From positions 1-29,498 of the IMG/VR virus record IMGVR_UViG_3300020160_000171: 29,498 bases of DNA, one strand, 5' to 3'. Positions 629-29,498 of the stretch are shown piece by piece. The notes below the pieces were generated by a model. The model was not told the origin of the DNA. It worked only from the letters and a program-made list of their open reading frames with translations, and made no database searches. Source of the stretch: a virus. Position numbers and translations under genes: made by a program. Within the stretch, counting starts at the first letter, position 1. Each line of letters starts with the position of its first letter.

Positions 629-3600
629 TTATAAACCTATTAAAGGACTTCCTGTCTCGCTGTCCAGAGTATCTCCAAATTCTAATGTTAGATATTGATC
701 TGTTGTGGTGTTCTGACCATAGTAATATTTATCTGGCACAAAAGATGGGCTCTCTAACAAGAACTGTGTTTGTGCTGTATTACGTAGATGTACATTAGAA
801 TATTCAAATCCTGTTACCATATCAGACTTAATTACTACTTTGATCTCAGCGTCTTCTCTTGGAAGATCTGCAAGAACTAATACATTAGTACCTGTTATTG
901 AAAATCCTGAAACTATTGTTTCGTTACTAGATGTTCCGTAAGAATTAACTGAATCAGAATCATAAGCAATATCTGTTCTTGTTCTAACATATTCTAAACC
1001 AGGTTTTGTTAATTGACGTCCTTGTACAAATACATCAATCTGATATTGCGTTGAAGTAGATGTGCTAAAAGTCAATGCAGATAGCGTACTTAAATCCCAA
1101 GTTGAAGTTCCATATCTAATATTGTCGTTGCCTGTAGCCCAATAGGTAGTAGCAGTTGTCCAAGTTTTAACAGACTGTTCTACAGGAATTGTTTGTCCTG
1201 CACCTTGGTCAACAACAATAGAACTTTCTTTGTGTAGTGTCTTAACTCCAGTCCCTAGTGTTCCTCTACGTAGACTACTTAGTTTATTGCCTTCCATTTT
1301 GTAGAATTCAATACGTTCACCGTTAACAAGTATAATACCAGGACGATAATTTATAGCAGTATTTTGCAGATTTATAGCAGGAATATAAGGAGGGGTTAAC
1401 ACACTAGCGTCTTCTACTGTTATCTCAGTATCTGATGCTAATAAATCAGCAGCTAACTGAGTAGAATTTCCGCTGCTTAGACGTTTATAATGTGTTCTTC
1501 CTAGGTTATCTCTAAAGATTCTATAACCTAAAAGAGATTCGTTTGTTTTATCAACTACACTCATTATAACCACAGTATCAGAACCTTGAACATTTAATGA
1601 CGATCTCAATAGTACTGTTTTTTGATCACTTTCTAATCTGTAGTCAATATCTTTAGTCAACGGTTTTCCGTTTAATTCAACCCAAATATAATTTGTGCTT
1701 AGTGCAGGTCGAGTAAGCCTAAAAATACCGCTGCCATTACCAGGGAATCTTTCTCGTCTAATCAACGAATTATCATGATTAGTAAAAGTGGTGACTTTTA
1801 CTGTGCTCGAGCTAGCAACACTTACTCTATCAGTAAGGATCAAACTTTGTCCTTGAACAATATAATCATGATCACGAAGAATTGTAATAGCAATAGCATC
1901 ACCGATTGAAATTGTATTTTCTGCAAATTCAATTAAATTTTCTTCTTGTCGAAGAGTTAAATTTGCTCCAAAGTTTCTTCTAACACCATTAACATAAACT
2001 TCTAAGTGTGCCATGTCTGGCAGACCCTGCGGATAATCGTAATGCTGTTCAAAAGAGAATGTCAATTGATTTGCTTCTGCAATATAGTAAACCGTATCAG
2101 GAGGACTTAATCTTGTTCCATTCTTTTCTACAACAATTTGACTATGCAACGGGCCAATTACCCCAGGAGGTTGCGATAAAGTAAACGTACTGGTTCCTAT
2201 ATTTGCAGTGAAGTACTCGTCATTTACTTCGCTAAACGCTTTATGCTCACCACCGAATGCCCAGACTTGCAGTACATCTCCATAGTTTAGATTATTAGTA
2301 AATCTTACAATTGCTCTACCTGTAGTTCCTACCAATATATAGCTAGTCGATTTAACTCCGTTAACTGTGACATATGCACTGTTGATGTTATTCTTGCTGA
2401 CTGCTAATTCAAAATTATTTCTTCCTGTAGCAGAACTTATAGCATAATGAACTTTGTCTATTAGATTTTTTCCGCCAACATTCATGGTAGTAATTGACAT
2501 AAATTGAGGCGTAAACGATGTTTGCCTAAACGCATCAAAGCTACCTTGCCCTGCATACTGCCAGTTTCCGCCATTAATAGTGCTGTAAAATACATGACTA
2601 GTATTATTGAGAATTTGTGTGTAGTCTACTTCAACTCCTGTACCATTCGTAGTTCCTGTTCTGCCTGTAGCAATACCTGTAACAAATCCTAGATCACCAT
2701 TGAAGTTTGCTTCGCGCCATGTGTTTTCATAGATCATTTCGACATATTGATCTGTTCCGTTGCTATACAAAGTAACTTCGTATTGATATGCAGGCACTGT
2801 CGGTGATTGATTTCTTTTATTATAGTGTGAACCTTGGAATCTTAATCTCCAATATATAAAATCACCAATAGTGCCGTTACTTAGGAATAAGCCAGGAACT
2901 TCCCCTGTATCTAAAGGTTGTCCTGAACTACCTACTGCCTGCCATAAATCACAATACTCAATATAAATTGCAGGCTGAGTTAGGAATCCTAATTGTAAGG
3001 GTGTCCAACTTGAATTGCCACTGCCAAATGTTAGATATCCATTAGTTCCTACGTACACTTCATCGTAGACAAAACCAAACATGTTCCATTCAAATCCTAA
3101 TGAGTACGGACCCGTTGATGTATCATCACCTGCGGTTGATGCTATTGGAAAACTAATGTTTTCTTTTCTTGGAAGAACTTCTGTCGAACTAAAGTACGGC
3201 CCTTGAATATTAATTAATGGGCTGTCTAATAATACAATTTCATTTGTAGTAAAATCGATATCAAAGTCAATGCCATAAGTTAATACAACGCCATCTTTGA
3301 TTACTTCAACTGAACTAATGTTTGGAGGAATAATTCCTATAGAGTATCTGTCATTACCGGCTTCGATATAATATTTTTTATTAACGACAATACCAGTGCC
3401 AGCTTCCGGATAGGTAAAGATATTAATTCCTAAACTATCTGATACTCGACCTGGAAGATTTTCTTCTGGGCCGTAGCTGTTGGTAACACTAACAAATGCA
3501 TCACCATCGATGTTGATATCTTCGTAGTCTTCTGATTTTGTTACGACAAACTTACCATCTAAAGTTGTATAGTAGCCGCCACCTGAAATATATGTATCAA

Positions 3601-6600
3601 GATCGGGATCAACAATAGAACTACTACCGTCACTTGACTGTGTTCTAAAAATTACAGTAGCAGTAGAGTCGTAGATCTTAGTAACTGTTACGGTACTCTG
3701 ATATCCGTTACCAACAAAAGTGGGCATAAAGGCATCAGGATTTGTAGCAGTGCTTCCGTCAATTCTTATTGTGATAAATTTATTAGTTACTGTGTTAAGA
3801 GTTTGAACATAGACGTTAATTGATTCATTTAGCTCAGGAATAAAATCTAGTTGATAAGTGTAAGGATTTGGATTTAAAAATACCACAGTGCCTGTAGTGT
3901 TTGCAACAGTAGATGATGAAAGGCTTACTGCCCACTGAGAAACACTACCACCTTTATAAGTAGACGAGGTTACTGTGTAAATTGTATTAGTTGTTAATGC
4001 AGTGGTTGTAGATCCAACTTTAACTGTTTTAACATCTGGGTAATTAATTAGATCAAAATAGAATGTGCTAGTTGTTGGATTAACATTTGAAGAATTAAAC
4101 TTAGCTGATACTCTTGGTCCTTTTATTAGATAGGCACGTTCTTCAGGAATAAAATCATCCCAGTTGTTTATACCAAAAGGTAAGGTGTCAAATCCGCTAG
4201 ATAAGCCGAAAGGTAAAGTATCAACTGTTACTCCTGGATATTCTAACCCGTTCATTAACAGCGTAGCTGTATTTCCAGGCATACCAGAGGTAGGCTCATA
4301 ATAATCTCTAATTCTATCTATTGCGTTATATAAAGACGTCTCTTTACGATATTCAATTGTTATTTCAGTACGTTTAGGAATGATAGTATCAAACACTAAA
4401 GAACCGTATTTTTTAGTGTATCCTCTAAATTTTCCAGTAAAGGTATTGATCGAATAATCGCCTGACAATACTCTTATACCATTGAGTTTAACTGTGATAA
4501 AGTTTTTATCTGGGTTTGGTGCCCATGTTAATTCAAACTTGTTAGTTAACCCAGATGCAATGAATTTATCTTCAGCATCTTTAGAAGTGATTTCGTTATA
4601 TCCTGCAACTCGATCAAATTTTATTTTGATAGTACTTGATCTAACTTTATTGTTTGACATAACAACACTGATTTTAGCCGGTGTTAGCGTCGATGGACCG
4701 CCGCCAATAAGATTTATCAAAGGAGTAGCAGTGTAACCAGATCCTGTATCTGTTACAATTACTTGAGTCACTTTACCTAAAGCAATATAAGCCACTGCCT
4801 TAGCTCCGCTGCCAGTGTCGCCCGCTTGTGCAACAATTTCTACTACAGGCGGAGTATCATATCCTGCGCCACCGTTATAGACCTGTACAGACTCAACTGA
4901 ATAGCTATAATTTTCAGCCCAGGCTTTCCACGGATACACTGTTAGTTCTGGTCTACCAAATGTAATAGGTGTAAATTGTTTATTAGTAGTATCATACACT
5001 GAAGGTAAATCAAAGTCTGTAGTTACAGATTGAGTAATATCTGTTGCTGTGTAATTTGCAGAGAAATTTCTTATCTTGGTATGATAAGGTTTCGCCTCCT
5101 CAATATAGCTTTGATAATAACTTTCGTTATTCAGTTTGTATACTGGGCGTTGATCCAAAGATCCTGCATAATTTATAACATTAATAAAAGATGTTTTGAA
5201 TACCCAGTCTAAAGATTTTTGTTCTGTTAGAGCATACTTAACTAATTTAAAGAATAACAAGTTGTAGTATACTTTCAATTCTCGAACAAAAACATCTTCA
5301 AGTAATCCTAAGAAAATATTGTTAATTTCTTTAATCGGAGTTTGATCAAATAATGTTTGATCGAATCCGGCAATTTGATCAAACCCATAAATTGATTCTG
5401 AATAATTCCATAATGAATCCAATAACTGAATTGTTCCAGCTTCTTGATATACTAGATCGTACTGGCTGTTGTATGTTCCTGAAAGTTGAGTACTAAGAAT
5501 TTTACGCAGGATAATATATCTACCATCGCCCGCATTTCTAATCTTAATATAATTGCCTTCGGGAACATTAACTAGTGCAGATAATTGATATGGTTCATCA
5601 ATAGTTGCTAGTATATCTTGTGCGTTGTTAAATTCATTTTCAACCCAATCAATGTACTTCCAATAAGCTGTAGTATCGTAGCTTTGAGACGAAACTCTAT
5701 AATATTCTTTATTAGTATAGTTCCATTCGTATTTGCTCCACTTATTATTAACGGTAGTGTCTACTGATACAATAACCGTGAACGGTCGAACTGTTAATGT
5801 TGGGGAAGTGATATATCCAGTACCTGCATTAACAATAGTTGTCTTAACAACTTGTCCTACAATGTTAATTTCTGTTTCAACTATTGCACCACGACCGCTA
5901 CCTGCTACAATAACAGTTGGGCCAATATAGTTTTCTGATGATGAATTTGAAGTTGCTGATTTTAAATTTGCAGCCTTATATCCATATCCTCTATTAACAA
6001 TTACTACATTAACAATTCTTCCATTTACTACATCACATGTTAATTCTGCTTGTTTTAAATTACGAGTAACAATGCTAAAATCTCTTTCAATAAGATCTTC
6101 AACTAGAAAATCATATTGTCCCAATAAAGGATTAGGAGGAGTGTCTTTATTCAAAAATCTAGTTAAATTAACATAGTCAACAATATTATTCTTTTTAAGT
6201 ATATTATTTGCATACTCAACTAAAACTCGAAGAGCACCTTGTTTGTTTACAAATACTGTCTGTCTCGGTCTAATTCCTATACCGTATCGATTTCTAACTG
6301 ATAATGTTTCATCAGGAATAGTATTATTTGAACTATCTATTCCTACTAGACTATCTAATATTTTGTTAATTAGTTTTTTGGGAGGTAGACTTGACTTATT
6401 ACCTTCTTGTAATAATAGCCACTCTGTATGTTTGTTGTTAATATTTTCAATTGTATCTAAATTAATTGATAGATTAATTTTTGTTCCAACAACACTTTGT
6501 TGCATATTAGTTAGCATCACTGCATTTTCAGCAATCATACTTGCAAATTTAATTCCCTGTGCTTTAGGATCTGCAATTATTGTTGCAACAGTATAAGCAC

Positions 6601-9600
6601 TGATCTTTCTTTGTGCTCCTGTGGGAACTGTAGTTTTATTTTTTACCCAGAAATAATAAAAATTACTGAAAGAGTTAGAAATAGGATCCCATACTTGTTT
6701 TACAGATATAACTGAGTTGTCAGGAAATTTTGGTTGTCCGCTGATTCCTTGTGCAAGGCCTTCGTTGGTATCTGAAATTGCCGACCATTGGCTAGGTAGA
6801 TAAGGAGTGCCTACCCATTCGTAGACATCAACCATAGACCCTGGGAACATACTGTTCCAGTTATTTTTTCTAAATTCTAGTTCGCCTTGTTCGTATTGCG
6901 TATATTTTATTGATCCTAGATCCCACCATAGTTCACCAACGTGCTCATCTAACCAGTTAGCAGTAGTATCTGCAGATACTCCCGGTACTCCAATTGAGTA
7001 AATTGCAGGATCAAACAATGATTTATAACGCAATTCTTGATCTGCTAGTCCAGAAATTTTACCCTTAATTGGATCAATAATTTCTAGATAATCAACAATA
7101 CTGTCTAATTCTGTATCAATGGTCTTAACATTTTTAATTTTATCTAGATCCACTAGCTCTGATTCTTCTCTTAATGGGTACCAACTATCTAAACTATTAG
7201 ATTTAGATTCATAAAGATACAATGCACCCGATTGATTATCTGTATAGTCTTGTCCCGGAGCTCCAATTAATACATAACTATTTGAGGCAAATATGCTCTT
7301 TCCATATACTTGATTTGTTGTTACTCTATTGTCAAATAATTCTTCAGCAAATACAAATTTTTCTTGTTTACGTATAAAAGTAAACACAGCACCCGAATTT
7401 CTTACTGTAGAATAAAATCCCACTGTTCCTGAATCAAAGGTTGTAGCAGAATCTCTTGGTGTACTCTTTGGGTCAAGTATATATTTTGGTGATCCTGATT
7501 TTTGTTTTGAATATGTGTCAAATGTTAGGTACGGACGATGAGTTGAACCAATACTAGACACTATCAAAGTTTTTCCATCAGGCGATAAACTCATATTAGC
7601 ACCAAAATCATATCCGTTATCAACAAACGGATTTGAAATAATCTGCGACAATGCGTAGTCAACTAGGTCTCCTAACGAATTATATTCTGCTTTAAACACA
7701 AAAATTTTGCCAATTTTTCCGTTATCGCCTAATGCTTTAGGAGCCGAAATATAAAGATAGTCGCCGTCGCCGTCTAATAGTATTTTTTCTCCAAAATTGT
7801 CACCAACTTTGACATGACTAGATAAATCAGCGTCGGTAATATCTTTTGTGATAATAGTAGAATTAGGGAGGAATGAAGTTACTCTTACATAGCCGCCGCC
7901 TAGAGCAGATACTGCCGATCTTTTAACAGTTCCTTTGTTTAACGCTATACTATGACCAAATCTATCACCCGTTGCAGGAATAAAATCTACCTGTCCTGCA
8001 AAATCGACTAATGTACTAGTAGATACAACATTAGTATTTAGATCAAGTGTACTATAAAATACTGTTCCAGCATTGTTATTAAATCCTGGAGCTGATACAA
8101 TAACAAACTTAGCAGAATTTGTATCGGAAGCCACAGCAACGTCCCAACCAAATTGTGCATACGACTGTGGTAGAGGACTGGTAAACACTGCCCTATCAAT
8201 AGCTGCCGCATTAGGTTTTTCAAAATCAAATTTAATAAGCTGGATTAGTCCCTCTTCAATTTTGTTTGACGCAGTATTATTAATATTCACTACTGTAAAA
8301 TAACTAGATGTATTGCTATACTTAACGTGTGATGCCTTAGGAGCACCTACGACTGCCCAACCGCTGCTTTCATCAAATTCAATTGATTGACCGAACATAG
8401 GAACATTTGTTCCGGTAAAAAATGTTGAGATAGATGATGGATTATTATTTCTGCTGCCAGCATAAACTAGTCCGTCTGTGCCTTTCCCTGTTTTGTTGTA
8501 GGCATACAATCTGCCGTAAGACGGAGATAATGTTGATTTATAATCAGGTGCAACAACAATTAATTTACTACCGTCAGTATTTCCAACAATTGAATATCCA
8601 TATCTTTGATTACCATCGGCTCCAAAATTATCAGGTGATCCGTAAAGAGTAGAATCAAAATTATTATTTTTTTGATACACTGCCCATTTGTCTGATCCAT
8701 TGTTATCTATCCAAACTTTTTCTTTGTCTTTGAATCTGTCAAAAGTTGGCAGATATACTAGGTCGTCAAATGTATTAAATCTAGAACTAACAAATTTAAA
8801 CAGTAGTCCCACCGACGGGTCAAACGGGATTGTTAAGTCTGTTAACTGTGACTGTACAATAACTTGATTTAAATCTGTAACAACATCAACAACAAATACT
8901 CCGTCAATGTACGGATCGAACTGAGAAATACTTATTATATCACCGGCAGATAAATTATGGAAAGAATCTGTAGTGACTATTAACGAGGTTCCTGGAATAT
9001 AAATTTCAACATTGATAATTTTAGAAGATAGTTGAGTATATCGATAAACTCCCCAGTCGCCGTTGTCTTCAAATCCGATCCATACAGTGTTACCGTCTTT
9101 GAGTGTTCTGTTATTAGCAATGTCTAATAAACTATTTCTATTATATGCAGTAGCAGTTACATCATCAATCCTCACATACCCAGCTACGGGTAATGTGCTG
9201 GCTATACTACTATATTTTTTTGTAACGGAAAAAGGACTATTATTGTAATTATCAGGTTTTATTAGTATATCTTTTTCTTCAATGTACGAAATATAATCTT
9301 TAGTAACTACAGGTTTTGTCTGAACAAAATTAATAATTTGAGGATTTTCTTTAAATTCTGATTCGTTTAGAATAATTTCAAATGATTGGTCTGTACTAAA
9401 TGATCCATATTCGCCAATACGCACCGCCCAATCTTCATAAAAATCTATATAGCTTCCTTGGGAAACTACGCTGGCCTTGCTTAATCTGTCAATTGTATTA
9501 CGTGTGCCTTTTTCTTTAAGGAACCCTTGATAAAATTTATACTGACTAATTGCATTAGTAAAGATATTATCAAGATAAGGTCTTGGAGTATATCCAATAA

Positions 9601-12600
9601 GATGCTGTGCTAGCGACTGCTGACTTTGATCAAAATTATCAATATCTAGACTATAAAAATCATCGAACTGTGCAATTTTATAATCAAAATTTGGTAAGAG
9701 CTCTGCTACAGGTTTACTACCTAGGACCGACCATTCGTTAAAATTAAATGTGTCCGCTCCGATGCTTTTGACAATAGCGGTATAATAATTTCCTGCATAA
9801 AAAACAACATCACTGATTGCGTAGTCGGTGTACGGAGACCAAGATTCTATTTCTGCCTCGTCATAGATAAACCCTGGACTGAATAAGTCTCCGTTCCAAT
9901 TATCTGTAATAAATCCAGAAAGTTTAATTCTGCGTTGTCTGTATCCCGTTTCTACATCATAAATCACATCATTAAAAAATGTGTAATTGTTTAATACTAG
10001 AGTATGTTCTTTCTGAATTAAATTTAATCTTGCAAAATAAATTCCGTCAGTTGTATTCAAAGTCTTTAATGTAAAATCATTTTCTTCTCTGTAAGTAGAA
10101 ATATTTTTACTAGACAGTACTGCGCCGTCTGCTTTTAATACACTGTATTCGTAAAACACGTTGGTTAAACTATCAACAACTGCTGAAGAATTTTTAAATT
10201 TTAATTTGTCTGCAAAAGGACTTAGTGTTATTACACTATTAACTGCCCAATTTTGACTCGACCAATAAATTAATTCTTTTGCTGAGAATTTCCAATCAAC
10301 TACTTCTTGAACTTCTTTACTATATTCGTCAAATATTAGACCTTCAGATTCTAACCAACGTCCATATCCTAACAACACTGCATAGATATCTGTAATACTA
10401 TTATACTCTGTCCCGTAAGGAATTAGAGTAACGACTTTTTCAAACTTCTTAGGAGTTTTAATTGTAATGCCACCAATTTTAGGTAGCTCAACTAATGCCT
10501 GAAAGTTGGCCGTATTAAATGTAGTTCCAGAGTTGTGGCTTACTTTGACTCGATAGAACCTTTCAAGATGTCTTACAATTTGTCCTTGTTTATAAAATCT
10601 ATAACCATCGTTAGTACTAACTGAGACAGTATCAAATCCTGACATAGGATTTGAAGCTGAAGGGGCCCAATCAACAAAAGGAGAACTTTTCCCTCCAATT
10701 GTTACTGCTGGATCAAGTGTCGTAAACACTGGCATATAACAGTTGAAGTACGGATTTTGTGTGTCGTAACCTTTAATAGAGTAACCCTTGTCTGTTTTTT
10801 GTACAATTACTCCGCTAACACCTATGCTCTTTACTGGACTGCTTTTATCAAGAAATATTGAATAGTCGCTGTTTGCAAGAAAAACTCCAGGACTTGCACT
10901 TGAAGGACTTACACTGTCGATAACTATTTTAAATTTGTCTTTGTTAACAAAGCCGCCAATTTTATGTGTAAGTTTTGAATACACAAAAGAAGTATCTGTT
11001 TTTAACTTTTCAAGATAATTTCTATTCTTTTGTTTACCTGCTTCAATTAAAAATACACTATATCCAGCTGCTAGTAAAGGTGCACCATCAACTATATCTT
11101 GATAAAATTTTAAAACATCAAAACTATGAAAGTCTACATTATCACCGTAGGTATATTGTCCTGCTAAATTCTTTTTAGTTCTACTAGTATCAAATAATAA
11201 AGAACTATAAGAAGACGGATTTGATAATGCCATTAAAATTTGTACGGCAAATGGCCATAAACTGCTGCGCCTCCATGCTGTTTCTACAGGCCCTTGATCT
11301 CCAAATTCCCAATTAGTATCAGTGGATTGATAATCAACACCTGTAGCAATGTTTACCTGTGTTGGCATTAACAAATTACCGTTATCGTCAACTGGGATAA
11401 TATTTGACAGTCCTGGTCTTGCATACAAGGGATTAATATCTGTGTTTATAGGATCTTTAATTAACCCTTGTTCTAAGTCATTCCACAAAATTGTATTACC
11501 TAGTGTGTATGGCGCAGGTCCGTATTCAGTTTCCCACCATTCGGGTTGTTCTCTAAATCCTAACATTTCCCAAGGATGCGTATGTGGACGATCTGTGTCA
11601 AAGAAATATTTGTAAACAGCTCTCCATCCTCCAGGCAATGGCATCTTAGTTATTAGATCTTTTCCTGATTTTACATTCCAGGTTTTAGGATCATCGCCGG
11701 CTGTGGCATTCTGTGAGAAATTAAATCCGTAAAAAGCATCCCATTTTAAAAATTCTCTTGCAAGAATAGAATTAATTTCTTTTGGAGAATAATCATTAGT
11801 TCTAAATGCTCCTGGAAAAATTTTATCAATGTTAACTAGTTCAGGATTATATTGAATTTTAAGATTGTTATATATTCTACGTTCATATTCAAGGATAACT
11901 GCATCTCGGCTATCACCAAATGCAATTATGATACTACCGTCATGTCCTTGTATCACTGTCTGAGGTTCTACATAAGTATCGTCAATGTAAATTTTTGGTT
12001 CAAACTTAGGGTACAATCCTAACTTTGTAGGTGTAGGTGGTACATAGCATCCTCGAGTACTGGCATAATCGTCTACTCTAATTACATCGCCCTTAGTTAA
12101 AGGTATTTTGATATGTACATTTGACTCATATAGATCAAATTCATACTCAGTACCGTGTACTAGTTGTATGGTATTTCCATTAGTATCAGTATAATATACA
12201 ATAACCGATCTTTCAGAAAGCTCAGTAAGATTAAAATTAGATAGTAAAGAATATACTGTATTTCTACTATCAGTTACTGTGTAATTTCTAGTAACTGCAT
12301 CTGTACCATACCCTATCATGTCGCTCATTGAATACGGGAACATGATGTCTTTATTTGCATTAACATTATAAAGAGCAATATCAAGTGCCCGAGACGGCGT
12401 ATAGACTCCGGATAAATTTGTTATTTGATCAATCAATGCCAATTTAAATTGATTGTAATGTTGACCTACTAGTCTTGTAGCAGATATTAAATTAAACTCG
12501 TCATTGGCAATAAAATATCCGGCAAACGCCAAGGGATTTTTATTAGAAATTAATCGTGTGCCGTATGCTGAAAGATTTGATATATCTCTTAGATTACTCG

Positions 12601-14950
12601 AACCTGGGAATGTTCCAGTAAAGTTTGGATGTCTATCAACCATTGTTTTAACATGGTCTGACAATTCAGATAGTGTAAATTCTCCAATAGGACCATTTAA
12701 CGGATTATTCGTCCATCCAGGAGAGGTTTCATAGTAACCTGTTGCACTTGGTACTGCTGTTGTTTTAATTTTAAACAATACCTTATCGCCAACTAATAGT
12801 GCAGTTTTAAACACTACAGAATAATTTCTACCTGATGCAAATAAAGTATACTCTGTTCCCAATACTTTCTTATCTTCGTTGACATATACTTCAATATCTA
12901 GTGTTTGATATCCTGGGTTATCAACTGATGTAATTTGAATTTCTGTAGTCGATTCAGAAATAATATTATATTGAAGAATAGGAATTTGATATTCTTCTGT
13001 TTCTGACCAAACATTTAAAAATGTCGCCGTATCACGAGAAATATTTTTCTTAATAAACCCACTTGCAACTTTAACATCAAACGAAACATTGGTATCAATA
13101 ATAGTGTTAGTTTCGTTCATAAAATAGTTTTCAAACAAGTAGTACGCTTGATTAGCTACGTTTTTATATTTTAATGGGAAGCCTAAAACTGTATCTTTGG
13201 TTCCTGTACCGATGGCATAACCGAATATTTTAGATCCAATAAACCCGCCTTTATATACTGTTTCGTCACTGTAACTTATTCCATTGTTGTCAACAATGTC
13301 AAATCTCGGTGCTTGATTAATTGCTATTTTTTGCTGACTTAGTACCCACTCGGTGCCGTTGTACCACCAGTTAGTGCCTCTGTATGCTGTACCTTTGGTA
13401 ATAGTAATAGAATCACCATCTAGAGGTGTAACATCGTCAGCTTCTTCGAGACTAATCTTAAACTTATCTTCAATCTTAACAAAGTTAACATAAAAAGTTT
13501 TACCATTGACATAACTGTCATTGTCGGCAGTAAAAATAATTCTATCACCTTGACCTAATTCTACCCCGTCAACATAATACCCTAACTTGCCTTCGACTTC
13601 TGTAAATGCATCAGTTGTAGATGTATCAATAAATTGTACATTAGGTTTTGCAAAACTTCCAAAATTATCAAGTTGTAAGTCAGCGACAAATTCAATAATT
13701 GGTCGCTTTGCTTTATTCTTGATAGGAAATAACAAAGGTATTTTATTTGCTTCTGCAGATGTTTTAATTACATCTTCATGGAACCAACGATTATAACGAC
13801 TCCACGGATTCTTATCTTGACTTGATCGATTAATAGTAACGTATTCAGGAGTTTCTGGAAAGTTATTTGACTGGTCAAACGCATACTGATCAAATGCTTG
13901 TGTATCGAATCTTTCGTCAAATGTTGATGTAAATTTTTCTGGAGTTTCTAAACTATCAATATCAATTAATTTAATTTTATCTCCAACACCTTCGACAATG
14001 AAATGTTTATTTTTATATTTTACAGGGGTAACATTTCCAACAAAGTCTATTACTAGACCGTTAGTCAGTGTTATTCCATTATAAGAAGTATAGTCTTTCT
14101 TTCCAATAATTTCTTTCTCTACATCAATACTACTGTTTTCTTCTATACTTTTAATTACAAATTCACCGCCATTTAGCTTGTCATTTTCAGATACAAAGTA
14201 CAGCAGTGCCGGCGATGTATGGTCAATTTTAAGAGTAATAGTTCCTTTTTTGATACCGTTATTTTCTGTAACTCTGAAAGGCGCTTCTTTCCCGTCAACA
14301 CGGCTTGTTTTAATCCAGAAAGGATTTTTTGAATCAACATTAAACTTATATGTCACACCTCGATAAAGTGTTACTTGTGGTGCAGGTGTTAGACCGTCCG
14401 GACTAAAAACAAAATAAAATCCGTCAGCAGTGTCTGTTACATTATATGTACTGACAATTTCTTTTTGCTGATTCCCTATGGCAACAGAGTCCGGTCCATT
14501 AGGAAGCCAATAATAGTTTTCAAAATTAACAAACTTGTCCCAGTCAATATGCGGATTATATGAATAGAATTCAGGTTTAAATAATCTATCTACTCTAGAA
14601 GTATTTGCTCCTTCGAACGCTAGCTGATTAATTAAATCATCGTAAGATGTCGATTTAATAATTCTTAAAATATCATCTGTTATAATTAGTGCTGGTTCTA
14701 ATTGATAATCTTGGCGCAATTTTGAATTAGATTCAAGATAAAAGTCTTTTTCAACATTATAAGTAGGAGTAATTTTTCCACCAACCCACCCGTCTACTCG
14801 TTTTAATTGAGGAGTCTGTATTAATTGATCAATAGTGCCTGATAAAAATTTTGAGTTTTTATCTGTTCTAAATAATACAGGTAACAGATTTGCCGATTTT
14901 CTCATCGGACTATTGTTTTTATCTGCTACTTGTGATAGGTCATCTGACAT
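629..14950 (-). CDS. Giant 4,773-residue baseplate/tail structural protein
   Basis: One uninterrupted frame fills 14.3 kb. The start ATG overlaps the gp6 stop as TAATG and has a good ribosome site (GGGAG, 7 bases upstream). Residues 1-160 contain the segments LLPVLFRTD and [19 protein letters not shown], which I recall from very long tail proteins of T4-like aquatic phages. Other such segments are [11 protein letters not shown] (about 384), HPWEMLGF with [12 protein letters not shown] (1121-1164), and [14 protein letters not shown] with [14 protein letters not shown] (1750-1820). A seven-repeat FG-GAP-like propeller follows at about 2105-2595, then GxGYxxxP repeats (about 2990, 3050, 3360, 3403). 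Further on are a nidogen-like domain (about 3935-4130) and repeated small beta-modules to the C terminus. A segment at about 4470-4600 ([20 protein letters not shown]) resembles a tail-protein module. The gene stands where T4 has gp7-gp10 after gp6, so I infer a wedge or peripheral baseplate role. True homology to gp7, gp8 or gp10 is not shown. No enzymatic motif is seen. Confidence 0.85.
821..2383 (-). repeat. Repeated beta-modules, C-terminal part of giant protein
   Basis: Residues about 4190-4710 of the giant protein contain at least five degenerate copies of a module: a V-x-V-x-G strand, a D-Y or T-Y turn, then an I/V-x-F/L strand ending in GD-x-I/V-x-I. Clear examples are [45 protein letters not shown] and [10 protein letters not shown]. 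The same pattern occurs earlier at about 684-730, 914-960, 3484-3537 and 3877-3917. Such strings are common in phage fibre shafts and tail proteins. The copies share a pattern but little identity, so this is a fold-level repeat, not a recent duplication. Confidence 0.6.
2561..3148 (-). other. Nidogen-like beta-sandwich domain in giant protein
   Basis: Residues about 3935-4130 follow the pattern of nidogen-type extracellular domains. A hydrophobic-aromatic segment ([20 protein letters not shown]) is followed by YLTFG, a [11 protein letters not shown] stretch at the place of the usual acidic P..W.D segment, and IYWRLRFQG plus [11 protein letters not shown]. Nidogen-like domains in bacterial and eukaryotic adhesins read similarly (VYV.SNG.ITFG, then a W.D element). 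This suggests a surface-exposed adhesive domain in the distal part of the protein. The call rests on motif resemblance only. Confidence 0.45.
7166..8638 (-). other. Seven-repeat FG-GAP-like beta-propeller in giant protein
   Basis: Seven repeats each begin with an aromatic-Gly pair and a hydrophobic strand, and most end in a V-x-x-A/G-P strand: YGYSIVG (residue 2117), FGQSIEF (2185), FGWDVAV (2266), FGHSIAL (2331), FGEKILL (2385), FGANMSL (2448) and YGKSIFA (2548). Strands such as [25 protein letters not shown] and YVLIGAPG follow, and then strands such as GRLYAYN, GKIFVFK and GALYLYE. Spacings of roughly 54 to 100 residues fit propeller blades with variable loops. This is the FG-GAP signature of integrin-alpha-like propellers. 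Seven copies match the usual closed seven-bladed ring. DxDG-like calcium loops are only partly present (DGDGD in repeat 5, SPDGK in repeat 6). Confidence 0.7.
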
Positions 14951-17900
14951 TAATATACTCCCGCTGAGGTGCTGTTAACAATATTTTCTGAAGTTTTAAT
15001 TTGATTAGCAGTAATAGCATCAATAATTTCAATGTCATTGATCGATGCACCATTGATGAAAATTTCGTTACTCTGACAGGCTATTTCATATAAACTCCCA
15101 AATGGAATTTCTGCTTTTGGTACTATGATAAAATTTGTAATATCTGGTGTTAATGAATTCATTATATATGTCGATAGCTCACTAAAGTAGAAAGTTTGCC
15201 CAAATTCCCAATTTTCTAAACTAAAGAAATTTTCAATTGCTGCTAGTATTTTTGTTTTCAATTCGTTGTCTGTAGTTGATCTGGCTGTATTTCTTACAGC
15301 CTTGAAGGTAGCCTGAAGATTTCTAGTAGATTTAGTTCCAAATAAAACTTTATATTTTACAGGTTGATATACTAGTTCATCGCTGATAGCTTTAATTGGT
15401 TCTAGTGCAGAAGCATAATTTTCTTCTAGAGTTGAACTAGTAGGTGGTAATGGTTCAGCCCCAGATAACGATAGTAACCAATTCCTATAGTCAGTGTCGT
15501 AGCTCTTAGTCAATATAAAAATATCCATTAAGTTTGTCTTACTTGGATCTAGTCGTCGATCTTCACCGCTGTTATGTTTGTATTGGAATGTTAATCCTCG
15601 ACGCCCGGGTTTAGCAAAATAACTAGATTCTAAAGTAAATGCATCTATTGTACTAGTTGAATAACTTTTAATTACATCAAATGACGCATCATAAAAATAA
15701 AATAGTTGCCCGTCATTGTATTGAGTTAACGGTAAAGGTACATTGTCTTCTGTAGGGTAAGATAAAATCTCAGCACCATCAAATATAGAATAAGTTAACT
15801 CGTCTGCAGATCTCTTAAAAAATACAAATTTATCTTTTTTAAGTGTTTGAAAACTTACTGAATCAGGAGCTACTATGTCGGCAAATGCGTCAGGATTTTC
15901 GATCTGCCCGTCATCATATTCGTCTAAGAACGAAATTTTAATTTTCTTAGGTTCTATATATCCGTCGGCTTCAATAATATTTCCGTCTATTTGCCATCCG
16001 TAGTTGTTACCTAACGGCAATGTAGAAAATGCAGCGTCCGAAACACTAACTGTAACTGAGCATGTTGAGCTATAACCTGATCCAGAATTTACAACTACAA
16101 CTTCAGATATTCCGCCATTCTTTAATAAAGGAATAAAATATCCACTAGTGCCCGGTAACGATACTGTTATATTAGGAGTTGTTACAAATCCCGATCCTCT
16201 GTTTTCTATATTAAACCCAGTGACATTTCCTGCACTATTTGTATTGATAGACAGTACCGCGTTTCCGTAGTAACTAGCAGGTGCAGGGTTTGTTGATAGA
16301 ATTTTAATTTGATCTTTAACCACTGTATTTTTAACAAAATCAAAATTCTTAGAAGTAGTATCAAAGTAAAATGCTGTTTCATTTTCACTTTCAAAAATAT
16401 AATCAGTAACTCTATATCTTACCTGATATCCAAGACCTGTCCATTCAAATGCAAATAACCAGCTGGCGTCTTTATTATTATTTGTAACGTCTTTCTGATA
16501 TACTATAGAAAAATCGCCGTTTAAATTTAAATTAGTATCAGTTATAATGTACCATTGTCTAGTGTCAAGAGCAAAACTTAAACCAAAATTACGTTTTGAT
16601 AAACAAAGATTTACAACATCTGTTTGAAGTGTATAGCTAAAGACTGTGTCAAACGGTGGAATAATTTCTTTTGCAATTGCGCCAGTTGGAACAAATTGAG
16701 TTAAAATAACTGGTCCAGTGCCGTCAGGTAGTTTGCCAAGTCCGCCGTAAGCACCATCTCCTATAACCAATGCAGTCTTAGTCCATTGAAAATTGCGGGT
16801 AGTTGAATCTTGTGTCGATGTCAATGTTCCGTTAGGTAGGAAGTACTGCCCGTCCGGTGGGACGAATTTTATTAGACTATCAGGTCTAACATAAGTTAAA
16901 TTATTTGATGAAAATATTCCTGTCTGTAAAGGAGTATCTAATGCATCTTTAAAATATCCAGTTGTCTGATTAGTAGACTTTGTTACCTGTTGCCAGTAAA
17001 CTTTAGGATCTAATAATTGAGGTCTTGCCCAATTTCTAAGATAAAAATTTCTCATACTAGTCGATTCAACAATGGGAACCATTTGATTTATGATCGCTGC
17101 ATAAATTTCATTTTTGTTAGTAAATGAAAAGTCAAATGTTAGTTCTGTGTTGTCTTGATATAGTGCTCCGTCGCTGCCGAAGATATTGGTGCTAGAGTAT
17201 TTTCCGCTGACATCGCTTAGTTCAAAATATTTAGAAACTCCGCTGGCAATTCTATTAACGGTTTTCACTTTAACTATATCTGCACCTGCGGTCAACGGAG
17301 CAATATTATAATCTTCACCTGTTACCATACGATTTTGTGTATAGTAAGCCTGTGGTGCTTTTAGTTTTATATCAATATCAGACTCAGTAGATTCACTATT
17401 AGACACAGTATACTGAAGACTAAATGTCATTGTGAGCGTGTGTCGCTGACCAGACTTATTGTAATACGGAACTTGTATTTGAACTCCATTAACTTGTTCT
17501 GGTTTAATGCTGTATTTTAAACCGTTACTTTGTCTATAGAAAAATACAAAATTACCCTTAGGTAAATTACCAAACAATCCGTCTGCAAAATTTAAATCTA
17601 TTTGATCGTTTTCTCTAGTAGTTACTGCAAAAATATTTCTTTGATCGTTATTAAGACTGTTATAGATAACATTGTTTCCAACAACATTGGTTACCTTGGT
17701 CCAATTTGTTGAGTAATTACCATTAGCATCAATTTGCCATAGCCACACATCGCTGTCATTAATATTACTAGCGTTAACTCCAACAATTTCATTAGGTACA
17801 GGTGCATCGATACTAAAACTAGTTAGATTTAATGTACCTTGTCTAAAATGGGCAAAGAATCCTGTGTTAGCACTAGCACTGCCTTTTGAATCGTTTCTAA

Positions 17901-18615
17901 ATAACATACTGAATTGATCGGCGGGCTTAGGTACAGATTCGTAGATATATTCTTTACCTGTAAATTCACAACTAGTAATTTCAAAAGGCATAGAGATACC
18001 GCCAATTGTTTTAGAGAATGAAAAAATTGGTACATCGGTGTTGGCTGAATTTATCTTGTATTGCTCTGTGGGAATTGCACTGATTAGTTTTTTACCGTAG
18101 GGTTTACCAAATGTAACATTGCCCGGCATCGCTGAATTTAGAACTGTGATAAACTGTTGATACCAATTTAAATTACTAGTATCGTTCCATGCGATAATTG
18201 CATTGGCAAGGTTACTACCGTTGGCATCAAATACGTTATCAGTAGTTGTTATTGCTGTTAATTTTAGTAGTCCATTAGCAGGTGTATTTCTGGCAGCATT
18301 GTAATTAATCAACTGTGCTAGTCGTAAAATACTGTCTCGGCGCTGTGCAGTTTCTAAAAAGTTTTCACGTGCATTAAGATCAACGCGGAAACTTAAATTT
18401 TGTCCAAGGTATGCAATTAGATCAATTAAGGCAATAAATTCACTAGATTCAATATAGTCGTTAAAATCTTCTGGGTACTTTTCACGTAGATACGAAATCA
18501 TTGTTCTACGTAGAGTTTCAAAATCATAGCTTTTGAAATCAGAATTTTTAAACGATTGGTATACTTTTTTCCAATCTTCGGCTACAAGTAATTTAGAATT
18601 TGTTGACGGAATCAT
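14950..18615 (-). CDS. 6: Baseplate wedge protein gp6 (baseplate J-like)
   Basis: T4 gp6 forms the wedge ring that holds the baseplate together and rearranges during sheath contraction. The N terminus (residues 1-110, including EFIALIDLIAYLGQNLSFR and RRDSILRLAQLINY) is the conserved start of T4-like gp6. GEDYNIAPLTAGADIVKVK with SDVSGKYSS (about 432-480) is the baseplate-J core. FKAVRNTARSTTDNELKTK to TFYFSELSTYIMN (about 1100-1165) is the C-terminal wedge region. At 1,221 residues it is nearly twice T4 gp6 (about 660). The added middle part includes GSGFVTTP and GSGYSSTC repeats (about 810-850), similar to repeats in the next gene. The start ATG lies 50 bases after gp25, behind a late-promoter match and a weak GGAT ribosome site. 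The stop overlaps the giant gene's start as TAATG. I am sure of the family, less so of what the extra domains do. Confidence 0.93.
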   Translation of the reverse strand: MIPSTNSKLLVAEDWKKVYQSFKNSDFKSYDFETLRRTMISYLREKYPEDFNDYIESSEFIALIDLIAYLGQNLSFRVDLNARENFLETAQRRDSILRLAQLINYNAARNTPANGLLKLTAITTTDNVFDANGSNLANAIIAWNDTSNLNWYQQFITVLNSAMPGNVTFGKPYGKKLISAIPTEQYKINSANTDVPIFSFSKTIGGISMPFEITSCEFTGKEYIYESVPKPADQFSMLFRNDSKGSASANTGFFAHFRQGTLNLTSFSIDAPVPNEIVGVNASNINDSDVWLWQIDANGNYSTNWTKVTNVVGNNVIYNSLNNDQRNIFAVTTRENDQIDLNFADGLFGNLPKGNFVFFYRQSNGLKYSIKPEQVNGVQIQVPYYNKSGQRHTLTMTFSLQYTVSNSESTESDIDIKLKAPQAYYTQNRMVTGEDYNIAPLTAGADIVKVKTVNRIASGVSKYFELSDVSGKYSSTNIFGSDGALYQDNTELTFDFSFTNKNEIYAAIINQMVPIVESTSMRNFYLRNWARPQLLDPKVYWQQVTKSTNQTTGYFKDALDTPLQTGIFSSNNLTYVRPDSLIKFVPPDGQYFLPNGTLTSTQDSTTRNFQWTKTALVIGDGAYGGLGKLPDGTGPVILTQFVPTGAIAKEIIPPFDTVFSYTLQTDVVNLCLSKRNFGLSFALDTRQWYIITDTNLNLNGDFSIVYQKDVTNNNKDASWLFAFEWTGLGYQVRYRVTDYIFESENETAFYFDTTSKNFDFVKNTVVKDQIKILSTNPAPASYYGNAVLSINTNSAGNVTGFNIENRGSGFVTTPNITVSLPGTSGYFIPLLKNGGISEVVVVNSGSGYSSTCSVTVSVSDAAFSTLPLGNNYGWQIDGNIIEADGYIEPKKIKISFLDEYDDGQIENPDAFADIVAPDSVSFQTLKKDKFVFFKRSADELTYSIFDGAEILSYPTEDNVPLPLTQYNDGQLFYFYDASFDVIKSYSTSTIDAFTLESSYFAKPGRRGLTFQYKHNSGEDRRLDPSKTNLMDIFILTKSYDTDYRNWLLSLSGAEPLPPTSSTLEENYASALEPIKAISDELVYQPVKYKVLFGTKSTRNLQATFKAVRNTARSTTDNELKTKILAAIENFFSLENWEFGQTFYFSELSTYIMNSLTPDITNFIIVPKAEIPFGSLYEIACQSNEIFINGASINDIEIIDAITANQIKTSENIVNSTSAGVY

Positions 18616-18646: not shown

Positions 18647-18668
18647 TAATAAACTGCGTAGTTTATTA
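18647..18668. repeat. Perfect inverted repeat over gp25 stop codon
   Basis: Nine-base arms TAATAAACT and AGTTTATTA flank a four-base loop (gcgt). In the leftward transcript the hairpin would include the gp25 TAA stop and end just before the gp6 late-promoter match. The stem is AT-rich and no U-run follows on either strand, so it is not a standard terminator. It might be an mRNA-processing or 3'-end stabilising hairpin. Confidence 0.5.
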
Positions 18669-19100
18669 GCCGGCTAGTCCGACACGTTTATCAAATGACA
18701 ATATCATATTATCGCTAACATCTGTTCCTCGATAGGACAGAGTAAGCTCAATTAAAAATCCGTAGTCTTGCTCGACGATGTTAATCAGCGTAGGGACTAC
18801 TCTAGGATCTAGATTTAATATTCTATCAATGTCGGCTGCAATCTGTTGTTTTACCACAGGTGTAAGGGGCTCATAGATTAAATCCCAAATTATCGACCCA
18901 AACTCAGGATTCATTACACGCTCACCTTTGCGAGTATTAAACTGATTTAAAATATCTTGTTTAATTAACTCGTAGTCATATAGCTTAACATTAGTAGTAG
19001 TTTCATCTACTGTACTAAAGCCTTTATAAAACTGACTTCTTTGTTGAGTAGTTACGTTGTCTACATTTGGGGGTGTAATGATTGTATTTTTGTAAGCCAT
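18666..19100 (-). CDS. 25: Baseplate wedge protein gp25 (GPW/gp25 family)
   Basis: gp25 is a small wedge component near the tail tube that nucleates sheath assembly, with homologues in type VI secretion (TssE) and P2 gpW. The hallmark basic-acidic segment TRKGERVMNPEFGS is at residues 56-69, preceded by the helix LIKQDILNQFN and followed by IIWDLIYEPL. Residues 75-143 give the usual alpha/beta end (IAADIDRILNLDPRV, then FLIELTLSYRG). Length 144 is close to T4 gp25 (132). The start ATG is 8 bases after the gp5 stop and has no recognisable Shine-Dalgarno site. The next in-frame ATG is inside the conserved domain, so this start is the only sensible one. Confidence 0.95.
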   Translation of the reverse strand: MAYKNTIITPPNVDNVTTQQRSQFYKGFSTVDETTTNVKLYDYELIKQDILNQFNTRKGERVMNPEFGSIIWDLIYEPLTPVVKQQIAADIDRILNLDPRVVPTLINIVEQDYGFLIELTLSYRGTDVSDNMILSFDKRVGLAG

Positions 19101-26877: not shown

Positions 26878-27783
26878 ATGGCCACAGTAATAGCCCCCAC
26901 TGGACGCAAAGTCCGATATTTAAATAATAGAGATTTACTCTCTGAAATACACAAAAGTAAAAACACATTCAGCGTGTTTACCAAACCTGAATACGGACAG
27001 CATGATATTATTCTAACTAACTTAGATAAAATTAATATTAGAACAGTTGCTGAAGCTAAACGGATTCGTGCTAAACGATTAGGTTTACAGGCTTTTAATC
27101 GTGCAAGATTAGACGGTGATAAAAAAATCAAACTAGCAGAAGTTACACCGGATTACAAAACTATACAAAAAATAGATCTAGTGTTTCGAATTATGACATT
27201 TGATCATATACCACTAGCGCCAGGACGCAAGAAGACAACCAAGACCACAGCAGACAGTCACGACAAAGTAAACTTTCCGCCGTTCCAGCATTGGAAGTTT
27301 GACGATACTGATCAGCTTATCTGTGTTGGTAAAAGTCATTGGAAGGGTGATTTAGTTACTGGGCACTTTAACAAAGATCATGGACGAATAACTGAGAATC
27401 TTGGAAAGATGTTTATTAAACTTTCAGAAAGATATGCTCAAAGATCTAACTGGCGAGGATATACCTACAATGATGAGATGCGTGGACAGGCTATCCTACA
27501 GTTAAGTCAAATTGGATTGCAGTTTGACGAATCAAAATCAGAAAACCCGTTTGCTTACTATACGGCCGCAGTGACAAATTCATTTACTCGAGTGCTTAAC
27601 ATTGAAAAGAAAATGCAAAACATCCGAGACGACATGTTAGAGTCGCACGGACTTACTCCGAGTATGACTAGACAAAGCCGCGATGAGTTTGCCGAAGAAA
27701 CTGCACGTCAAGCCGAACTGTATAAAAACTTTAAATTACCGAAATCAGAAGAACCGGACGTCGAAGAAGAGGACGGGGCTTGA
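26878..27783 (+). CDS. 55: Late-transcription sigma factor gp55, N-terminally extended
   Basis: T4 gp55 is a small sigma70-family factor that recognises the late -10 element and contacts the sliding clamp, coupling late transcription to replication. The sigma region 2-like core is at residues about 170-255: ITENLGKMFIKLSERYA, NWRGYTYNDEMRGQAILQL, NPFAYYTAAVTNSFTRVLN, EKKMQNIRDDML. The C-terminal tail (ELYKNFKLPK followed by an acidic end) is where T4 gp55 binds the clamp; conservation of that function is inferred. The protein has 301 residues against 185 in T4. The surplus is an N-terminal domain (about 1-165) with YLNNRDLLSEIHKSKNTF, DIVFRIMTF-like sequence at about 100-108 (DLVFRIMTF) and FPPFQHWKFDDTDQLICVGK (134-152). 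I recall this domain in uncultured aquatic phages but know no function for it. The gene order 55-47-46 is as in T4. Confidence 0.9.
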   Translation: MATVIAPTGRKVRYLNNRDLLSEIHKSKNTFSVFTKPEYGQHDIILTNLDKINIRTVAEAKRIRAKRLGLQAFNRARLDGDKKIKLAEVTPDYKTIQKIDLVFRIMTFDHIPLAPGRKKTTKTTADSHDKVNFPPFQHWKFDDTDQLICVGKSHWKGDLVTGHFNKDHGRITENLGKMFIKLSERYAQRSNWRGYTYNDEMRGQAILQLSQIGLQFDESKSENPFAYYTAAVTNSFTRVLNIEKKMQNIRDDMLESHGLTPSMTRQSRDEFAEETARQAELYKNFKLPKSEEPDVEEEDGA

Positions 27784-27808
27784 TCTGTATAACACATTTT
27801 GCTATACT
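27780..27808 (+). promoter_or_regulatory. Host-type promoter for gp47 (extended -10)
   Basis: The -35 box TTGATC (4 of 6), overlapping the gp55 stop codon, is followed after 17 bases by TATACT (27803-27808), with TG one base upstream (TGCTATACT). The ribosome site TAGGAG (27816-27821) follows at once, 10 bases before the ATG at 27832. The layout copies that of the gp55 promoter, so gp47-gp46 can be transcribed separately from gp55. Confidence 0.65.
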
Positions 27809-27831
27809 GTTCAAGTAGGAGACTCTAATTA

Positions 27832-28845
27832 ATGCCCTTGTTTAAAAAAGTTGCATGTTTCACAGACATACATTTCGGATTAAAATCAAATAGCAGCACA
27901 CATAATCAAGATTGTGAAGATTTTGTAGATTGGTTTATCACAGAAGCCAAGAAAGAAGGTTGCGATACCTGTATATTTCTTGGCGACTGGCATCATAATC
28001 GAAATACTATCAATTTAACTACCCTAGATTCTAGTCTAAGGTGTTTAGAAAAACTTGGTGCGGCATTTGATCAATTCTTTTGGTTTCCAGGTAATCACGA
28101 TCTATTTTATAAGGACAAGCGTGACATTCATTCCAGTGCCTTTGGTCGGCACATTCCAGGAGTTACGGTTGTAGACCGTGTTACAACTCTTGATGATGTT
28201 ACCCTAGTTCCTTGGCTAGTAGGTGATGAATGGAAATCAATGAAAGATTTGAAGTCGAGATATGTATTTGGACACTTTGAATTACCTAGTTTTTATATGA
28301 ACGCCATGGTACAGATGCCAGATCACGGTGAATTACAGCGTGGCGATCTATCTAGTCCCGAATATGTATTCAGCGGACACTTTCATAAGCGTCAACATAA
28401 CGGTAATGTCGTCTATATCGGCAACGCATTTCCACACAATTTTGCAGATACATGGGACGATGAACGCGGTATGATGTTTATGGAATGGGGCGGTGTGCCG
28501 CAGTATCGCAATTGGCCCGATGCTCCTAAGTTTAGAAGTCTAAAACTCAGCAGATTAATTGAAGAAAAAGATACATTAATGAAAAGTAAAATGTATCTCA
28601 AAGTTAATCTTGATATTGATATCAGTTTTGAAGAAGCTAATTTTATCAAGGAAACATTTGTTAAAGAACATGACGTTAGAGAAATCAGTCTTATTCAAGA
28701 CAAAGACAACGTAGATATTCTAATCGAAGACCAGACTGATGCAAAATTTGAAAGTGTAGATCAAATTGTAACTGAACAATTGGTTAATATCGAGTCGGAT
28801 TCATTTGATAAATCAACTTTACTTGAAATTTACAATAACCTATGA
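27832..28845 (+). CDS. 47: Recombination nuclease subunit gp47 (SbcD/Mre11-like)
   Basis: gp47 with gp46 forms the nuclease complex that resects DNA ends for recombination-dependent replication and degrades host DNA. All metallophosphoesterase motifs are present: TDIHFG (D12, H14), GDWHHNR (D52), GNHDL (N88, H89), GHFE (H148) and SGHFHKRQ (H183, H185), which together ligate two metal ions. Residues about 240-337 form the charged C-terminal part expected to cap the nuclease or bind gp46. The length of 337 is essentially that of T4 gp47 (339). The ATG has a strong TAGGAG site and its own promoter. The stop overlaps the gp46 start as ATGA, so the two subunits are coupled in translation. Confidence 0.95.
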   Translation: MPLFKKVACFTDIHFGLKSNSSTHNQDCEDFVDWFITEAKKEGCDTCIFLGDWHHNRNTINLTTLDSSLRCLEKLGAAFDQFFWFPGNHDLFYKDKRDIHSSAFGRHIPGVTVVDRVTTLDDVTLVPWLVGDEWKSMKDLKSRYVFGHFELPSFYMNAMVQMPDHGELQRGDLSSPEYVFSGHFHKRQHNGNVVYIGNAFPHNFADTWDDERGMMFMEWGGVPQYRNWPDAPKFRSLKLSRLIEEKDTLMKSKMYLKVNLDIDISFEEANFIKETFVKEHDVREISLIQDKDNVDILIEDQTDAKFESVDQIVTEQLVNIESDSFDKSTLLEIYNNL

Positions 28846-29498
28846 CATTTAAAATTAAAAATATCACTGTTAAGAACTTTCTATCTGTAGGAAATCAAAC
28901 ACAGGCTGTTAATTTTGACAAAGAACACCTTACTCTTGTACTAGGTGAGAATGTCGATCTAGGTGGTGACGACAGCGGAAGCCGCAACGGCACTGGTAAA
29001 ACTACTATTATCAATGCGTTGAGCTACGCATTGTACGGACAGGCACTGACCAATATCCGTAAAGAGAATTTAATTAACAAGACTAATGCTAAACATCTAT
29101 TGGTTACTGTAGAATTTGAAGTTAACGGGCAAGCATTTAGAATTGAGCGTGGCCGTAAGCCTAATATTTTACGATTGTTTGTCAACGATCAAGAACAAAA
29201 AGCTAAAGACGAAGACGAAAGTCAAGGCGATAGTAGAGAAACTCAGAAAACTATTGAAGAATTACTGGGCATGAGCCATACTATGTTCAAGCATCTAGTA
29301 GCTTTAAACACATATACTGAACCGTTTTTATCTATGAAGGCTGCTGATCAGCGTGAAGTGATTGAACAACTGTTGGGTATTACACTATTATCTGAAAAGG
29401 CTGAAAAATTAAAAGCAGAAATTAAATCTACTAAAGATTCAATACAAGCTGAAACATATAAAATTGACGGTATTAAGACTGCCAATGAAAACGTACAA
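28842..29498 (+). CDS. 46: Recombination nuclease ATPase gp46 (SbcC/Rad50-like), partial
   Basis: The first 219 codons are visible; the gene runs off the right edge in frame. The ATG at 28842 overlaps the gp47 stop (ATGA), with no clear ribosome site of its own. The N-terminal ABC-ATPase half starts with FKIKNITVKNFLSVGN, the usual SMC/Rad50 beta-strand pair. Walker A is GSRNGTGKTT (residues 46-55; K53, T54). YALYGQALTNIRKENLIN follows. LGMSHTMFKHLVALN and TEPFLSMKAADQREVIEQLL (about 145-185) lead into the coiled-coil arm, which begins about residue 190 (EKAEKLKAEIKSTKDSI). The zinc hook and the C-terminal Walker B half lie outside the window. It supplies the ATP-driven clamp for gp47. Confidence 0.94.
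   Translation, partial: MTFKIKNITVKNFLSVGNQTQAVNFDKEHLTLVLGENVDLGGDDSGSRNGTGKTTIINALSYALYGQALTNIRKENLINKTNAKHLLVTVEFEVNGQAFRIERGRKPNILRLFVNDQEQKAKDEDESQGDSRETQKTIEELLGMSHTMFKHLVALNTYTEPFLSMKAADQREVIEQLLGITLLSEKAEKLKAEIKSTKDSIQAETYKIDGIKTANENVQ

Follow-up and report, generated by a model that had tools for sequence, protein, structure and literature searches.

Introduction

Animal cells provide the best-known FG-GAP propellers of the integrin type, which serve there as adhesion heads, and in this fold the BC and DA loops share one face. Integrin alpha chains (e.g., PDB 7usm, 9ind, and 3v4p) carry seven FG-GAP blades, each built of four antiparallel strands, with long, variable BC and DA loops on that face. 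In 2024, FG-GAP was still called hardly known in viruses, and an attachment role has been proposed for the FG-GAP genes of the prasinovirus MntV1 (PMC11467894). Giant eukaryotic viruses (MntV1, mimiviruses, and pithovirus) share the FG-GAP fold with the propeller described here, and a Foldseek search of BFVD with this propeller returned FG-GAP proteins from both giant viruses and uncultured tailed phages. A fold match was also obtained for the stand-alone FG-GAP propeller AUZ95081 of phage Atu_ph07 (L207 5019-6200), which is annotated as a "hemagglutinin". The propellers of giant viruses and the stand-alone propellers of phages are separate proteins, whereas the one analyzed here is a domain fixed in a protein of a baseplate locus. 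The repeat family and the fold are therefore already known, here in a version without calcium loops; our search of the literature for FG-GAP together with phage baseplates found no description, and a fixed propeller insertion in the giant baseplate-locus protein of a large phage clade appears to be undescribed in the literature searched.

The protein that carries this propeller, designated P0001, has relatives in virion proteins of 3,300 to 4,600 residues from RaK2-like, PA5oct-like, and Atu_ph07-like jumbo phages. They form the family phrog_10938, which includes PA5oct gp355, 121Q gp582, and Atu_ph07 AUZ94962, and mass spectrometry records exist for homologues in PA5oct (gp355) and fENko-Kae01. 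Judged by its size and gene position, phAPEC6 gp245 is probably a member of the same family; this 382-kDa protein adjoins the wedge protein gp244 and was found by mass spectrometry (PMC7247149). In T4, the position after gp6 is held by gp7, which has 1,032 residues and no propeller, compared with 4,773 residues for P0001.

Results

P0001 is a giant virion protein of a baseplate locus

The window, that is, the whole stretch of viral DNA analyzed (a record of 29,498 bases), carries baseplate-type genes on its minus strand (Table 1). The gp6-like gene lies directly upstream of that for P0001, with an overlap of one base, and gp53-like and gp5/lysozyme-like proteins are encoded on the same strand. 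A PHROG search assigned P0001 to phrog_10938 (E = 0, 1105 bits), and BLASTP matched jumbo-phage homologues along its length, in blocks across residues 1 to 3300. Identity to the giant proteins of this family is ~24 to 38% in the conserved blocks, and the gene order gp25 - gp6 - giant protein is common to both, yet at the site where P0001 has its propeller there were 0 carriers among the cultured members examined.

Table 1. Features of the baseplate locus and of the propeller insertion in P0001 (positions in the window)
Feature	Residues of P0001	Window position	Strand	Basis
gp25-like baseplate wedge protein		18666..19100	-	PF04965, E = 3.6e-10
gp6-like baseplate wedge protein		14950..18615	-	phrog_10646, E = 2.2e-289; Pfam Gp6-like (weak)
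P0001, giant virion protein carrying the propeller		629..14950	-	ORF, 4773 aa
WAVYQK, hairpin strand 1, upstream border of insertion	2089-2094	8669..8686	-	Contiguous with strand 2 in propeller-less relatives
Inserted FG-GAP_2 propeller	2095-2587	7190..8668	-	Empty-site test and fold
Blade 1	2115-2168	8447..8608	-	HMM 27.4 bits; four strands
Blade 2, 30-aa BC loop	2184-2257	8180..8401	-	HMM 9.7 bits; strands modelled
Blade 3	2265-2315	8006..8158	-	HMM 18.9 bits; strands modelled
Blade 4, degenerate, no A-P	2329-2372	7835..7966	-	Four modelled strands, pLDDT ~80-93
Blade 5	2384-2439	7634..7801	-	HMM 31.5 bits; strands modelled
Blade 6, 53-aa low-confidence BC loop	2447-2538	7337..7612	-	HMM 27.0 bits
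Blade 7	2547-2595	7166..7312	-	HMM 26.4 bits; Pfam FG-GAP_2
WYPLRE, hairpin strand 2, modelled outer (D) strand of blade 7	2590-2595	7166..7183	-	Model and empty-site comparison

T4 gp7 is a positional analogue of P0001 only, with no similarity detectable by hhalign (probability 0.3%), and T4 gp6, gp8, and gp10 gave no hhalign match either. An AlphaFold2 model of the 878 residues preceding the propeller (pLDDT 80, pTM 0.53) matched no PDB entry at E 0.001, with no solved wedge protein among its matches, and the body of P0001 is thus without an assignment to a known wedge fold. Since P0001 has no detectable similarity to T4 gp7 and the body model resembles no solved wedge protein, the label "wedge protein" comes from gene order.

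Several other features of the locus were recorded. Directly preceding the propeller, a small barrel-like module occupies residues ~1967-2060 (window ~8770-9050, minus strand); for the body model as a whole, Foldseek gave weak local matches to the barrels of E1 FCCH domains and of phage endosialidases, and one relative (L115) has a weak Pfam E1_FCCH match. Residues 169-255 (14186-14446, minus strand) are shared with cyanophage P-SSM2, where they match a protein resembling a tail fibre (36% identity, E 2e-7). Directly after P0001, positions 1-627 of the minus strand encode a collagen-like GxT repeat protein clipped at the window edge, and positions 26878-29498 of the opposite, plus strand carry genes for a late sigma factor (gp55-like) and SbcD/SbcC-like proteins (gp47/gp46).

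Seven FG-GAP repeats are present in P0001

The original prediction, made from the sequence alone, placed seven aromatic-Gly-initiated repeats in P0001, and all seven starts are present within one residue of the positions first given (2117 YG, 2186 FG, 2267 FG, 2331 FG, 2386 FG, 2449 FG, and 2549 YG). Its DNA span, 7166-8638, was correct to ~30 bases, the inserted module being better described by the limits in Table 1. The A/G-P pattern said to follow most starts takes the form A-P in five of the seven blades (1, 2, 3, 5, and 7); blades 4 (AVSALG) and 6 (IVSSIG) lack it.

Profile searches likewise bore out the assignment to FG-GAP, through both Pfam and an independent blade model. P0001 as a whole passes the cut-off of Pfam FG-GAP_2 (PF14312) with 30.1 bits against 23 (E 5.6e-7), and its relatives score up to 88 bits. 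Two features set it apart from other FG-GAP_2 repeat proteins: its propeller interrupts a hairpin, and every blade except the seventh has diverged beyond the reach of the Pfam model, the sole single-blade match lying at residues 2545-2580. The nearest relative, L001, which is 78% identical, has no Pfam match at all, and the curated library alone would therefore nearly miss the propeller. FG-GAP_2 was the only propeller-repeat family that Pfam returned in P0001 at E up to 0.1, with no match to VCBS or others. A blade HMM built from 13 relatives, with P0001 and L001 left out, gave P0001 a total of 104 bits. All positive scores fell at residues 2115-2590 and the rest of the protein had negative-scoring matches only; the best single domain in 200 whole-protein shuffles reached 6.2 bits. 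Blade 4 is degenerate, scoring -0.1 bits in P0001 and 4.3 bits in L001. The BC loop of blade 6 contains two conserved T-F-D motifs.

The predicted fold is that of an integrin alpha propeller

An AlphaFold2 model computed from 15 relatives (25 to 78% identical matches from IMG/VR) has a pTM of 0.78, a mean pLDDT of 71, and 28 strands, four for each of seven blades. Confidence is lowest in the flanks and in the BC loop of blade 6, where pLDDT falls below 50 at residues 2473-2513. A Foldseek search of the PDB placed nothing but integrin alpha chains on ranks 1 to 29, with a best E of 2e-12 and target TM values reaching 0.64, and the superposition on integrin propellers spans ~550 columns. A profile made from the AlphaFold2 alignment likewise found integrin alpha chains only among PDB sequences (integrin alpha-4, E 2.7e-8), and a single-sequence phmmer search of P0001 against the PDB gave no match, integrins being reached by profiles only. 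The seven-bladed, integrin-alpha-like fold first proposed from the repeats thus stands on strand count, structure comparison, and profile matches, with neither a non-ring model nor a lack of FG-GAP hits observed. That the ring is closed is suggested by the DSSP strand counts and the Foldseek superposition, in a model of moderate confidence.

A different architecture for the repeats, such as a beta-solenoid, an open propeller, or a ring of six or eight blades, is very improbable. The degeneracy of blade 4, the moderate confidence of the model, and a detected count other than seven in 27 of the 91 relatives with a propeller among the matches listed would be compatible with it, but the strands fall into seven sets of four, the superposition covers whole integrin propellers, and 64 of these 91 relatives have exactly seven detected blades. 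A further 16 have six, the count that overlooking a single weak blade would give. The blade number is held at seven across the clade.

The likeness to integrins has limits. Identity is ~14%, and the P0001 propeller lies within a phage virion protein and has no beta subunit. In place of the 9-residue Ca2+ loops of integrin alpha, the phage family has AB turns of only ~5 residues, and the calcium-loop motif DxDxDGxxD of classical FG-GAP (PF01839) was found 0 times in P0001 and once in 74 relatives.

The propeller is inserted in a hairpin turn

BLASTP showed 121Q and its kin to be colinear with P0001 through residue 2063 and from residue 2596 onwards, with ~15 residues between. Many propeller-less relatives have a short hairpin at this site, with the pattern W-x-V-Y ... 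W-x-x-x-R-x-Q-x-x-V-D, and a profile of 14 such hairpins served as a model of the empty site. When the flanks of P0001 were joined at 2094/2588, they scored 81.1 bits on this profile, compared with 20.2 and 50.5 bits for the halves alone and a maximum of 27.4 bits among 239 random joins. Shifting the right-hand cut in steps of 5 residues gave the best score at the unshifted position. Because the joined flanks score far above their halves and the random joins, the propeller sits in the hairpin turn. Its two ends would both be located on the outer edge of blade 7, an arrangement resembling the closure of integrin propellers. Taking fold and insertion jointly, residues 2095-2587 are, with high confidence, an integrin-alpha-type seven-bladed propeller inserted in P0001.

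Other phages have little or quite different material at this site, which contains almost nothing in 121Q, BF, and K64-1 and holds unrelated material of ~1,500 residues in Atu_ph07 and Phosso and ~380 residues in SCTP-2. The size at the insertion site is thus free, propeller-less relatives ranging from nearly empty to ~1,500 residues, and this would suit a rigid spacer, a ring with no ligand that gives a giant wedge protein only bulk or stiffness. We consider such a role quite unlikely, because seven blades are maintained and the B strands are the most conserved part (entropy 1.89 bits) while one kind of loop varies, and the carbohydrate-binding modules inserted in some relatives (see below) would be needless in a spacer.

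In two relatives (L003 and L006, residues ~1690-3180), the propeller is replaced by ~1,500 residues in which GxGYxxxPxVxVxGG repeats abound, and the same repeat occurs in P0001 near residues 3354-3450. For the SCTP-2 site, a LamG-like assignment suggested by visual inspection was dropped, as Pfam did not support it.

The propeller marks one large clade of uncultured jumbo phages

We sampled ~160 IMG/VR loci together with cultured phages, drawn by similarity to P0001 or 121Q, and built a tree of 137 representatives from the block after the insertion, using a quick method and a midpoint root. The 91 propeller carriers among the matches listed occupy one side of a single branch (SH-aLRT 98), and the presence of the propeller on the tree of the 137 listed representatives takes one change, compared with 38.8 in shuffles. 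A frequently swapped propeller hotspot was therefore rejected. As all listed carriers form one clade, the propeller was probably gained once, in an ancestor of this large group of uncultured jumbo myophages, and then kept, to judge by this sequence sample. A search of INPHARED phages with the propeller by tblastn gave only weak tail-end matches, belonging to the flank. The original prediction had called a propeller in such a protein unusual; it is no oddity of one phage and is stably present throughout a large uncultured clade (at least 91 representatives, one gain).

One gain and no detected loss in the 91 listed carriers, unlike the history of often-swapped receptor-binding modules, fits a structural role no less well than a receptor-binding one, a point against the binding reading. 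It agrees with the main alternative, in which the propeller is a docking platform, a protein-protein hub that operates within the virion and anchors tail fibres, whiskers, or a neighboring wedge with no host contact; beta-propellers in general are protein-interaction hubs. Loop variation and divergence bear on this alternative from both sides.

Long inserts cluster in particular loops

The mean standard deviation of loop length is 1.0 for AB, 8.6 for BC, 6.2 for DA, and 5.4 for CD, the last driven by blade 3. Inserts of at least 25 residues number 27 in BC and 13 in DA; CD has 19, of which blade 3 accounts for 15, and AB has 0. Two relatives carry CBM_5_12 modules inside the propeller above the Pfam cut-off (L105, E 1e-9; L112, E 3e-7). 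Between P0001 and L001, non-synonymous divergence is 0.147 in the propeller versus 0.078 and 0.088 elsewhere, so that the propeller diverges about twice as fast as the rest of the protein, under purifying selection (dN/dS 0.14). The hypervariable surface loops anticipated by the original prediction did not appear in this comparison, as the BC and DA loops (0.15) were not faster than the AB and CD loops (0.26), and together with the dN/dS this means that there is no arms-race signature.

Strong purifying selection is what a docking platform would lead one to expect, and long, varied inserts could match varied fibres. The carbohydrate-binding modules inserted in the loops of several relatives and the faster divergence of the propeller relative to the remaining protein speak against it, and we regard docking as rather unlikely, more probable all the same than a spacer.

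In L105 and L112 (at 6601-9024), the CBM_5_12 modules nested in propeller loops make a domain within a domain within a domain. CBM-like modules judged by eye in L032, L033, and L036 were not retained, L036 having no Pfam match. Helical-looking repeat inserts of up to ~490 residues, with the pattern SRAEVIAAYQNN..PSEQEIRYWM, stand between blades in L084 (6601-9024) and L081 (3-2123); the one in L084 had no Pfam match.

Discussion

The best explanation of the whole, to which we give a probability of roughly 55%, is that the ring was inserted once in a hairpin turn and serves as a display or binding platform on a baseplate protein. Both ends would exit via the outer edge of blade 7, so that the hairpin would mount the ring edge-on from the baseplate body, leaving the BC/DA face free. 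This face could then act as a binding platform, its likeliest targets being glycans or proteins of the cell surface or matrix during adsorption, and the blades would provide a rigid scaffold tolerant of loop changes and even of whole inserted carbohydrate-binding modules. The nearly constant AB turns, the long and variable BC and DA loops, the CBM_5_12 modules of some relatives, and the elevated divergence of the propeller are consistent with such a display face. The 15 long inserts in the CD loop of blade 3, on the opposite face, argue against a binding role, and analysis of the sequence and model found no ligand, catalytic site, or metal site for the propeller. As between glycan or host binding and a spacer, the sequence evidence leans towards a binding or display platform. 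The narrower proposal that the propeller binds the host surface and has a role in adsorption is evenly balanced on these data. The analogy to the integrin head would be limited to the display face, given the lack of calcium loops, and implies no common function.

A more far-reaching version, which we offer tentatively and rate well below the general reading, is that in a large lineage of uncultured jumbo phages the integrin-like propeller became a lasting component of the baseplate, an adhesion scaffold for host recognition that would be located in the wedge itself, not in a tail fibre, with a loop face diversified by the insertion of whole carbohydrate-binding modules. For giant wedge proteins of more than 4,500 residues, the insertion of whole domains into hairpin turns offers a simple model of growth. 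Because the insertion point is precise and relatives with an empty site exist in nature, clean tests are possible, as deletion of the module has a defined junction.

FG-GAP repeats also occur elsewhere in the Sinorhizobium phage Phosso. Its stand-alone FG-GAP propellers XYS97288 and XYS97289 (L206 46125-48533) adjoin a MazG-like gene, as in Atu_ph07. Two giant hypothetical proteins encoded side by side, XYS97266 (3162 aa; L206 48338-57826) and XYS97267 (3692 aa; 57900-68978), contain dozens of FG-GAP_2 repeats (178 bits in XYS97266), which probably form several tandem propellers, and XYS97266 also has glycine-rich ALK/LTK-like domains.
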